Below, in pieces: positions 32,137-35,905 of a stretch of 64,000 nt of DNA. Origin of the DNA: Ramlibacter cellulosilyticus (GTDB lineage Bacteria; Pseudomonadota; Gammaproteobacteria; Burkholderiales; Burkholderiaceae_C). The position numbers and the translations under genes were made by a program. The stretch spans positions 248,001-312,000 of the forward strand of contig NZ_JACORT010000006.1 in NCBI RefSeq assembly GCF_014297465.1, in the 5' to 3' direction. The first letter of the stretch is position 1. Each line of letters begins with the position of its first letter. The notes beneath the pieces were generated by a model, which worked only from the letters and a program-made list of their open reading frames with translations, searched no databases and was not told the origin of the DNA.

Positions 32137-33559
32137 GGGGTTGTCTGAATTTTTGTGTGTGAGGCCCTGAGACTTATCCAGGGCGGCGGGCGTCGCTTGC
32201 GACGAACGACCGACGCGGTGGGCAAGTCGGTGTCGCATGTTATGCGGCAACTTTCGTGAAGCGATCTTCATAAAGGATCGCGAACTGGTTCATGGCGTCC
32301 TTCCACTCCTTTGCAGCTCGGCCCCAATCGGCCGTGATGTTCTTGAGCGCCAGCCAGATCAGTTTGGATGCGGCGTCGTCGCTGGGGAAGTGCCCGCGGC
32401 TCTTGATGATCTTGCGCAGCCGCGCGTGCACGCTTTCGATCGCATTGGTCGTGTAGATCACCCGGCGAATGTCCGGGGGGAATGCAAAGAACGGGATCAC
32501 GTGGTCCCAGGCTCGCCGCCAGGCCGCTACTGCGGTGGGGAATTTCTGGCCCCACGCCCCGCGTTCAAAGGCATCCAGTTGCGCCAGGGCAGCTTCTGCG
32601 GTGGCAGCCGTGTAGATCGGTCTAAGCGCCCTGGCCATGGTCCTGCGGTCTTTCCAGCTGGCGAACTCCAGGCTGTTGCGGATCAGATGCACGATGCAGG
32701 TCTGCAGCGTCGTGGCCGGAAACACAGCCCCCAGCGCCTCCGGCATACCTTTGAGGCCGTCGGTGACCGCGATGAGAATGTCGTTGACTCCGCGCGTCCT
32801 CAAGTCGTTGAACACCTTCATCCAGAACTTGGCGCCCTCGCTGCCCTCGATCCACAGGCCCAGGATGTCGCGGCTGCCGTCGCGCTGCACGCCCAAGGCC
32901 AGATAGATCGCCTTGTTGCGAACCACCGCGTCTTCCTTGATCTTCACCCGCAGCGCGTCGAAGAAGACCACCGGGTACATCGGCTCCAGCGGGCGCGACT
33001 GCCAGGCGGTGACTTCGGCCATCACCGCCTCGGTGACCGAGCTGATGAACTCCGGCGACACTTCCACGCCGTAGGACTCCAGCAGGAAGCCCTGGATCTC
33101 GCGCATGGTCATGCCGCGCGCGTACATCGCAATGATCTTGTCGTCAAAGCCGGTGAAGCGCCGCTCGTGCTTGGGGATCAGCAGCGGCTCGAAGCTGCCG
33201 TTGCGGTCGCGCGGAATGTCCACCCGCACCGACCCTTCTCCAGTCAGCACCGTCTTGGGACTGGTGCCGTTGCGGTGGTTGGCGGCGGTTTCCTCCTCCG
33301 CCGGCGGCTGGCCCAAGTGGTGGCCCAGTTCTGCGCCCAAGGCGCGCTCGATCAGCGCCTTCTTGAACGCCATCGTGGCAGCGTTCACCGCCTCACCGGT
33401 CATCGGACCCGAGACGAACTGATCAATCAGTTCCTTGGGAATCTTCGGAAGCGCCGCGCTCCTGGCGGCGATCTCCGCGTTCTTCTGCTTCGTTCTGCTC
33501 GGCATATTGAGCTCCAGAGTTGGTCACTTTATGCCTCACACACGAAATTCAGGACAGGG
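32137..33559. mobile_element. IS256-family insertion sequence
   Basis: About 1.4 kb, holding one transposase gene. Imperfect terminal inverted repeats: TGTC-TGAATTTTTGTGTGTGAGGC near the left end (from ~32142) and, reversed, TGTCCTGAATTTCGTGTGTGAGGC at the right end (to ~33557). Exact ends are uncertain by a few bases. GC content is visibly lower than in the surrounding genes, in keeping with transfer. No 8-9 bp target duplication typical of the family is seen; instead a 50-bp repeat flanks it. Confidence 0.85.
32240..33505 (-). CDS. IS256-family (Mutator-type) transposase
   Basis: 421 residues, full length for the family. Catalytic DDE can be placed on Asp in VVFFDALRVK, Asp in VTDGLKGMPEA and Glu in YTTNAIESVHARLR. 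The N-terminal GAELGHHLG and TVLTGEGSVRVDIPRDRNGSFEP are typical of Transposase_mut. No frameshift or internal stop, so the element may still be active. Confidence 0.96.
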   Translation of the reverse strand: MPSRTKQKNAEIAARSAALPKIPKELIDQFVSGPMTGEAVNAATMAFKKALIERALGAELGHHLGQPPAEEETAANHRNGTSPKTVLTGEGSVRVDIPRDRNGSFEPLLIPKHERRFTGFDDKIIAMYARGMTMREIQGFLLESYGVEVSPEFISSVTEAVMAEVTAWQSRPLEPMYPVVFFDALRVKIKEDAVVRNKAIYLALGVQRDGSRDILGLWIEGSEGAKFWMKVFNDLRTRGVNDILIAVTDGLKGMPEALGAVFPATTLQTCIVHLIRNSLEFASWKDRRTMARALRPIYTAATAEAALAQLDAFERGAWGQKFPTAVAAWRRAWDHVIPFFAFPPDIRRVIYTTNAIESVHARLRKIIKSRGHFPSDDAASKLIWLALKNITADWGRAAKEWKDAMNQFAILYEDRFTKVAA

Positions 33560-34325: not shown

Positions 34326-35411
34326 CTAGCGCTCGTCGAAGGAGAGCACCACGCGCTCGGTGGTGGGGTGCGCCTGGCAGGTGAGGATGAAGCCGGCGGC
34401 GACCTCCTTCTTGTCCAGGGCGAAGTTGCGCTCCATGCGCACGCTGCCTTCCACCAGCTTGGCGCGGCAGGTGCCGCAGACGCCGGAAGTGCAGGAGTAC
34501 GGCACTTCCATGCCGGCGGCCGACGCGGCGTCCAGGATGCTGGGCTGCTCGCGGCTGAAGGCGATCTCGCGCTGGCGGCCGTCGCGGATGATGGTGATGC
34601 GCGCCTTCGCCGCGTCGCCGGGCTGCGCCTGGTGCACGATCGCGCCCACCTGCCCCGCCGCCTGCTGCGCGATGCCGAAGCGCTCGATGTGGATGCGGTC
34701 TTCCGGCACGCCGGCGGCGAGCAGCGCCGCCTCGGCCTCGTCGTTCATCTGGAAGGGCCCGCAGATGAAGGCATGGTCGATCGCCCCGGCCGGCACCAGC
34801 GCCTGCAGGAACTCGCCGATCTTGCGGCGGTCCATCACGCCGCTGTTGATGTCCATCTCCGTGTGCTCGTCGGAGAACACGTGGTGGACCACGAGGCGCG
34901 TGAGGTACTTGTCCTTGAGGTCGTCGAGCTCCTCCTTGAACATGGTGGAGCGCAGCTTGCGGTTGCCGTAGACCAGCGTGAAGCGGCTGTGCGGCTCGCG
35001 TGCCAGCACCGTCTTCATGATGGAGAGGATGGGCGTGATGCCGCTGCCGCCGGCGATGCCGAGATGGTGCCGGCGGGCCTGCGGCTCGATCGGCACGAAG
35101 AAGCGTCCCTGCGGGGCCATGACGTTGATCGTGTCGCCGGGCTTCAGGTGCTCGTTGATCCAGTTGGAGAACACGCCGCCGGCCACCTTGCGCACGCCGA
35201 CGCGCAGCTCGCCGTCGTCGACGCCGGCGCAGATGGAATAGGAGCGGCGCAGGTCCTGCCCCTCGATCTCCTTGCGCAGCGTGAGGTACTGGCCCTGCGT
35301 GAAGCCGAAGACGGGGCGCAGGTCCTCGGGAACATCGAAGGAGACGATCACGGCCTCGGACGTATCGGGCTGGACGGCGCGCACGCGCAGCGGGTGGAAC
35401 ATGACGCTCAT
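34326..35411 (-). CDS. paaE: 1,2-phenylacetyl-CoA epoxidase, reductase subunit PaaE
   Basis: 361 residues. Ferredoxin-NADP reductase module (FAD site RRSYSICAG, NADP region GIAGGSGITPILSIM and FICGPFQM) plus a C-terminal plant-type 2Fe-2S domain with CTSGVCGTC...C. It passes electrons from NADPH to the PaaAC oxygenase. Start MSVMFHPLRV at 35411 overlaps the paaD stop by four bases (ATGA). Confidence 0.95.
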   Translation of the reverse strand: MSVMFHPLRVRAVQPDTSEAVIVSFDVPEDLRPVFGFTQGQYLTLRKEIEGQDLRRSYSICAGVDDGELRVGVRKVAGGVFSNWINEHLKPGDTINVMAPQGRFFVPIEPQARRHHLGIAGGSGITPILSIMKTVLAREPHSRFTLVYGNRKLRSTMFKEELDDLKDKYLTRLVVHHVFSDEHTEMDINSGVMDRRKIGEFLQALVPAGAIDHAFICGPFQMNDEAEAALLAAGVPEDRIHIERFGIAQQAAGQVGAIVHQAQPGDAAKARITIIRDGRQREIAFSREQPSILDAASAAGMEVPYSCTSGVCGTCRAKLVEGSVRMERNFALDKKEVAAGFILTCQAHPTTERVVLSFDER

Positions 35412-35905
35412 AGCGGCTTGAAGTACTCGAAGGGCTCGCGGCAGGCGAGGCAGCGGTAGAGGGACTTGCAGGCGGTGGAGCCGAAGGCGGAGCTCTGCTC
35501 GGTAGCGAGGCTGCCGCACCGCGGACAGGAGACGCTTTCCGGCTTGCGCCGGAACAGCCGGACGCCCTGGGTCCCCGCCTCCGCGGGGATGACGGGAGGC
35601 GCGATCCCGTACTCGCGCAGCTTGCGCTTGCCGTCCTGGCTGATCCAGTCGGTGGTCCACGCAGGCGCGCGGCGCAAGGTGGCGCGTGCGGGGCCGAGGC
35701 CCTGCTCGCGCAGCGCGGAGAGCACGCTCTCCTCGATCACCTCCGTCGCCGGGCAGCCGGAATACGTCGGCGTGAGTACGACTTCCAGCTCCTCGCCGTG
35801 GTCGATCACGTCGCGCACGATGCCGAGGTCGCGCACGGACAGGGCCGGCACTTCCGGGTCGAGCACGCCGCCCAGGACGTCCCAGGCGCGCTCGGTGCGT
35901 GTCAC
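35408..35905 (-). CDS. paaD: phenylacetate-CoA oxygenase maturation factor PaaD
   Basis: 165 residues. N-terminal DUF59/MIP18 domain (VLDPEVPALSVRDLGIVRDV, PTYSGCPATEVI) and C-terminal zinc ribbon CPRCG...C..LYRCLACREPFEYF. Thought to assist iron-cluster assembly of the epoxidase. The start is a GTG at 35905 overlapping the paaC stop (GTGA). Residues 105-123 (VIPAEAGTQ...RRKPE) come from a palindromic repeat inserted in frame between the two domains. Confidence 0.92.
   Translation of the reverse strand: MTRTERAWDVLGGVLDPEVPALSVRDLGIVRDVIDHGEELEVVLTPTYSGCPATEVIEESVLSALREQGLGPARATLRRAPAWTTDWISQDGKRKLREYGIAPPVIPAEAGTQGVRLFRRKPESVSCPRCGSLATEQSSAFGSTACKSLYRCLACREPFEYFKPL
35537..35593. repeat. 57-bp palindromic repeat inserted in frame in paaD
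   Basis: On the minus strand it reads GTCATCCCCGCGGAGGCGGGG, ACCCAGGG, then a second hairpin TTCCGGCGCAAGCCGGAA. This is the common 'GTCATCCCCGCG' dispersed element. Its length is exactly 19 codons, so the frame is kept. Confidence 0.85.

Follow-up and report, generated by a model that had tools for sequence, protein, structure and literature searches.

The paaD gene of Ramlibacter cellulosilyticus, which belongs to the phenylacetate pathway, carries a palindromic repeat within its reading frame, and the copy in the gene still resembles other copies of the repeat, so that repeat sequence encodes part of a conserved protein. This raises the question of how much of the gene is repeat, how the repeat came to be there, and what has kept it recognisable. 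The window that was analysed is the whole stretch of 64,000 nt around the gene. A preliminary description of it had reported an element of exactly 57 bp (19 codons), inserted between the DUF59 domain and the zinc ribbon of PaaD. As will be seen, the interest of the locus centres less on insertion than on the persistence of the paaD copy and its apparent exchange with the dispersed repeats.

The paaD frame is open from 35905 to 35411, where it is followed by a stop codon, and a profile search matches the product to the TIGR02159 PaaD family (Table 1). The four closest named PaaD matches in the genome collection are all from Ramlibacter. PaaD proteins consist of a DUF59 domain and a C-terminal Cys-rich domain, and both features are present: the first domain gave matches to solved structures of DUF59 (best E 3.9e-7), and the cysteines of CPRC and CLAC are invariant in 41 PaaD sequences. 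The repeat lies in frame between these two domains and the gene stays open, just as first described. AlphaFold2, run with an alignment of 41 PaaDs, gave a mean pLDDT of 85.7, with values below 50 at linker residues 107–122, which are predicted to be disordered; this stretch takes in seven of the nine repeat codons, the other two lying just ahead of it. The predicted disorder of the linker would explain why the protein tolerated the REP. Elsewhere in the window, two genes from paaE, there is an IS256 family transposase gene (32240–33505, minus strand; NF033543, E 1.3e-118), adjoined by a gene for a TetR-like regulator (family assigned by eye).

Table 1. Coordinates of paaD and of the repeat features in its linker (positions in the window).
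Feature	Position	Strand	Description
paaD, 1,2-phenylacetyl-CoA epoxidase subunit PaaD	35408..35905 (including stop)	-	GTG start; 165 aa + stop; TIGR02159, E 1.8e-55
Full PaaD linker, GIAPP to CPRC	35528..35593	-	22 codons, residues 105-126
Whole shared repeat unit (C + 26 bp + GGGC)	35564..35594	-	Column consensus, 69 copies
REP core in frame	35567..35593	-	27 bp; nine codons, VIPAEAGTQ (residues 105-113); hairpin TCCCCGC-GGAG-GCGGGGA; 0 mismatches to the family pattern
Second palindrome, TTCCGGCGCAAGCCGGAA	35537..35554	-	In RLFRRKPE; native linker, outside the repeat unit

The repeat head in paaD, GTCATCCCCGCGGAGGCGGGGACCCA, starts at 35593 on the minus strand. A degenerate pattern of the repeat was found at 69 places in the 5.53 Mb genome that holds the window (up to three mismatches), and the reversed pattern, used as a control, at none under the same conditions, confirming that the palindromic element is dispersed. 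A 12-base piece with at most one mismatch is expected about 1.4 times per window, and so a GC-rich linker might resemble the repeat by chance; but the 26-base head in paaD fits the family pattern without a single mismatch, and against the empty control a chance origin is barely credible. The base before GTC is a C in 91% of the 69 copies, and in paaD a C at 35594 precedes GTC, so the CGTC tag is present. Also present is a short unpaired CCA tail (GGGACCCA in the PaaD copy), and CCA belongs to the family pattern as well. The stem of the PaaD copy closes a loop of four bases and is paired at seven of eight positions, the outermost A facing a C. The paaD repeat is a dispersed CGTC-type REP, supplying 27 bp, or nine codons, of the gene.

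Over the 69 copies, the four bases 3′ of the CCA are G, G, G and C (67–80% each), and conservation fades beyond them. In PaaD, 20 of the 31 bases after the head are matched by the best of the other 68 copies, and 5 to 17 by the rest. The fading conservation and these poorly matched bases put the shared unit at about 31 bp. A repeat unit of 57 bp was therefore rejected, its downstream half being missing from the other 68 copies, and of the 19 codons only nine are repeat-derived. Two hairpins are predicted around the site when 71 nt are folded as DNA (z −2.28; equal or better folding in 6 of 200 shuffled sequences), and the second of them is formed by a palindrome in a part of the linker that relatives possess with or without the repeat. 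Between species, this second hairpin shows two compensatory base-pair swaps (FGRKAE versus FRRKPE codons), and two of its seven pairs are changed on both sides.

The distribution of the repeat was examined in 60 genomes of the genus, of which the 24 with a PaaD at E ≤ 1e-60, including this genome, make up the comparison set. Among 49 genomes with PaaD matches, the other 25 have more distant ones (E > 1e-60), from which six loci (L163-L168) were scored and all lack the repeat. Within the set, the repeat is present in 11 of the 24 genomes, always at one site and in the same strand and frame, with an open gene there and similar flanking codons, and 13 are without it. The scores are bimodal: 12 rows show 0–3 mismatches to the repeat pattern and no other shows fewer than 10, among 129 scored of 138 PaaD loci (those unscored being L078, L107, L091, L097, L110, L114, L117, L121 and L123). 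One of the 12 repeat-like rows is a duplicate genome, and L061, L062, L063 and L064 were treated as the same genomes as L142, L032, L151 and L161. One of the unscored loci, L107 of Ramlibacter terrae (CP053418.1), has a paaD linker with repeat-like arms, extra bases between them and a shifted or broken frame; since the matching genome (G197) is just 63% complete, a sequencing error is possible.

If the repeat were a simple insertion of 57 bp (19 codons) peculiar to this genome, relatives should have shorter linkers. The two adjacent hairpins do span exactly 57 bp and the frame is open, but the linker from GIAPP to CPxC is 22 residues long here and 21–24 residues in the 13 repeat-free congeners (24–26 in the ten other carriers), and no gap of 19 residues appears when PaaDs of the family are aligned (top 30 loci among 102 matching genomes). 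These linker lengths rule out a simple 19-residue insertion and contradict the expectation that relatives lack the 19 residues. With the repeat also present at the site in ten other genomes, and its supposed second half in none of the other 68 copies, such an insertion has a very small probability. The observation named in the preliminary description as a refutation, the same 19 residues in distant PaaDs, is borne out by half: the second ten of the residues have native counterparts while the first nine have none. When L150 and L143 are compared by eye, 15 native bases (TLPEG) lie opposite 27 repeat bases, with near-identical flanks. The repeat codons take the place of native codons of the linker; the net result is a linker longer by a few codons in the other carriers and no gain in length in this species.

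The number of times that the repeat was gained was considered on a tree built from the sequence surrounding paaD, with the linker excluded. The carrier label needs three changes on this tree, the inner nodes of which are weak. A clade of carriers only is rejected (p-AU 0.0004), so the repeat must at least once have been lost, replaced or gained a second time, and a single clade of the carriers together with the L032 and L063/L151 lineages is not rejected (p-AU 0.22). The distribution of the repeat is clade-limited. No exact dispersed copies of the repeat were found in G097 and G203, the genomes of the L032 and L063/L151 lineages. The linker of L063, a non-carrier, resembles that of L150, which lies outside the clade, and this likeness could mean several gains or an exchange of alleles. 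One ancestral capture (nine codons for about five), with one or two losses or allele replacements, fits these results, and we infer both a single capture and this manner of capture.

Several independent insertions of REPs at a hotspot in paaD would also account for the failure of carriers to form a clade of their own, and REPs occur inside other genes of the genus (see below). This explanation is improbable. Orientation, frame and position are identical in all 11 carriers, their flanking codons are similar, and a single clade is acceptable with the two further lineages included. Exact dispersed copies range from 0 to 284 per genome among the 24 genomes, yet G163, the non-carrier with 284, has no insertion at the paaD site.

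The copy in the gene has not become unlike the dispersed family. In carriers, the repeat core is 87% identical and the upstream codons 81%; in non-carriers, the first 24 linker bases are 59% identical versus 84% for the upstream codons. The comparison of 59% with 87% is uneven, as the core was selected for resembling the repeat; without alignment, the first 24 linker bases of the carriers are 72% identical. Nor is the core exceptional when set against all windows of the gene: of 111 windows, 19 reach its identity over all positions, and 6 do so when third positions alone are counted. More specific are the matches between PaaD copies and dispersed copies of the same or a sister genome. Other exact copies of the genome's own PaaD 27-mer were found in four of the six carriers searched: five in this genome (G000), three each in G194 and G177, and 27 in G173. 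No such copy was found in G206 (83% complete) or G193 (89% complete). The strongest case is the 27-mer of G173, GTCACCCCCGCGCAGGCGGGGGCCCAG, a species-specific subtype that occurs at 27 other places in that genome and at six in the 23 other genomes together. The PaaD copy of G193 has an unusual stem and loop, and matches exactly a copy in a REP dimer outside paaD in its sister genome G165, at a place without a coding signal on both sides.

These matches suggest a continuing exchange of sequence between the in-gene copy and the dispersed family, and gene conversion would be a plausible force behind it. In its fullest form, the paaD segment would evolve in concert with selfish non-coding repeats by ectopic gene conversion, being overwritten repeatedly and lost when the repeat family is lost; we put this tentatively, at a little under even odds. 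Under concerted evolution of this kind, the paaD copy would be the recipient or, in G173, possibly the founder of the subtype with 27 other copies. G170, the sister of G173 on the tree, has nine exact dispersed copies of a wider pattern and a decayed PaaD copy. G162 has four exact dispersed copies and a PaaD copy that is nearly intact, which does not favour a dependence on donors.

The main rival to exchange is that the hairpin itself is kept, either by selection on a stem-loop in the mRNA or DNA of paaD or by templated mutation of a quasi-palindrome, in which one arm is copied onto the other, the likeness to the family arising from the same constraint instead of exchange. In the first stem, 96.1% of cells are paired and three of the seven pairs are changed on both sides, in a compensatory manner; the covariation score is reached by none of 500 shuffles, which leave relatedness in. 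As exchange with REPs does not explain the compensatory changes in the native second hairpin, with its own double-changed pairs, these keep the rival alive. However, a constraint on pairing alone would not yield the match of the loop bases, or of the G173-specific 27-mer, to the dispersed family, and the hairpin is decayed in G170 and lacking altogether from 13 congeners. Maintenance by hairpin selection or templated mutation is therefore considered unlikely, though less so than a hotspot.

Other in-gene copies were sought by means of a codon model for which the window served as training sequence; a stricter threshold missed PaaD itself and was loosened. In this genome, a coding signal on both sides was seen for four of the 69 copies, in PaaD, galE, ligD and L192, the last being a poor site with three mismatches that was taken for chance. 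The galE copy (L190:2393-3514, minus strand, contig C32) is in frame in the opposite orientation (VPRFRGDD), and the protein is 20–27 residues longer at the REP than in the seven relatives listed of 13, so that galE appears to be a truer coding insertion than PaaD. The ligD copy (L189:3-3101, plus strand, contig C31) has two mismatches and lies between the 3′-phosphoesterase and ligase domains. Coding-flanked copies made up 1 of 46 in the loci of G193, G165 and G206 (the PaaD copy of G193), 1 of 85 in 40 stretches of G173 (which exclude its PaaD) and 2 of 25 in 19 stretches of G194 (again excluding PaaD). Of the two in G194, the one at L276 is no clear in-gene copy, since it looks like two adjacent genes read through. 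The mnmE gene of G194 (L273:133-1575, plus strand) encodes VIPAQAGTQ in its GTPase domain, between the motifs NKLD and SAKTG. In G173, an indolepyruvate oxidoreductase beta family protein (L243:334-3099, minus strand) has two REP-coded stretches, the N-terminal of which is missing from the seven relatives listed of nine examined. Copies within genes are recurrent but rare.

Close pairs of REPs in this genome are mostly of one arrangement (11 of 12 in one orientation, with the CGTC ends outward), and the PaaD copy is single. Most spacers of these pairs fold into a GC-rich hairpin resembling an intrinsic terminator. Each of the 24 genomes has one PF01797 match, irrespective of its number of REPs. 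With PF01797 constant and REP counts varying, no link between the two was seen, and transposase number was dismissed as an explanation of how many REPs a genome has. In this genome, no REP place lies within 23 kb of its one PF01797 match (C31:75068-75364).

Taken as a whole, the best explanation is a single capture of a REP in the paaD linker, after which the copy was kept like its family by exchange (probability roughly 0.55). A CGTC-1-type REP would have entered the linker once, in the ancestor of a subclade of Ramlibacter, in a single phase and orientation, with nine REP codons (VIPAEAGTQ) taking the place of about five native ones. Unlike the linkers of other species, the in-gene copy would then have failed to drift, because ectopic gene conversion, or something equivalent, rewrote it to the subtypes of the family; where the dispersed family has gone, the in-gene copy would have gone too. 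In 11 species the copy is fixed at the same codon position of orthologous genes, which makes its orthology secure, and the replacement of one subtype by another can thus be traced along the tree. The locus therefore bears on how CGTC REPs spread, for which no dedicated transposase is known according to the account in PMC3733652, and on whether gene conversion homogenises REPs, a question that a 1988 review carries in its title. It also indicates that REP-coded segments of proteins can be inherited by a clade and need not lengthen the protein.

The kind of element is already known, as REPs lying in frame inside genes, including CGTC-1 repeats in Rickettsia, have been published (Di Nocera et al. 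2013, PMC3733652). That paper suggests that flexible linkers tolerate REPs, and reports recB genes of Xanthomonas with REPs at about the same site; its main text mentions neither Ramlibacter nor Burkholderi-, and no REP in paaD was seen in the literature surveyed, passages of PMC12306157 included. What seems to be unreported in these sources is a REP that takes over linker codons without lengthening the protein, in 11 species, and apparently exchanges with its dispersed family. As given in PMC3733652, CGTC-1 repeats have a stem of 8 bp, a loop of four bases and a complementary A-T at the first two stem positions; head-to-head dimers predominate, and transposase genes are not flanked by the repeat. 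The PaaD repeat shares with them the CGTC tag, the four-base loop, the CCA tail and a dispersal mostly outside genes with some copies in frame. GTAG REPs and REPINs, mobilised by RAYT, differ in their tag, the one here being CGTC. PMC3733652 also equates RPE-6 of R. conorii and dRS3 of Neisseria with CGTC-1 repeats. The dRS3 elements, of the same repeat group, are described there as occurring mostly in large clusters, whereas single copies and pairs are found here. The likeness to Rickettsia elements drawn in the preliminary description was apt, given the equation of RPE-6 with CGTC-1, and both RPE-4 and RPE-6, as reported in the same paper, resemble the PaaD copy in being palindromic repeats in frame within functional genes. 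Rickettsia RPEs are, however, presented there as insertions within open reading frames, and the PaaD linker is no longer than those of non-carriers; the galE copy of this genome fits the Rickettsia picture better. Compared with the intragenic copies of CGTC-1, the PaaD copy is distinguished by replacing native codons, by being common to 11 species at one codon position, and by matching species-specific subtypes.
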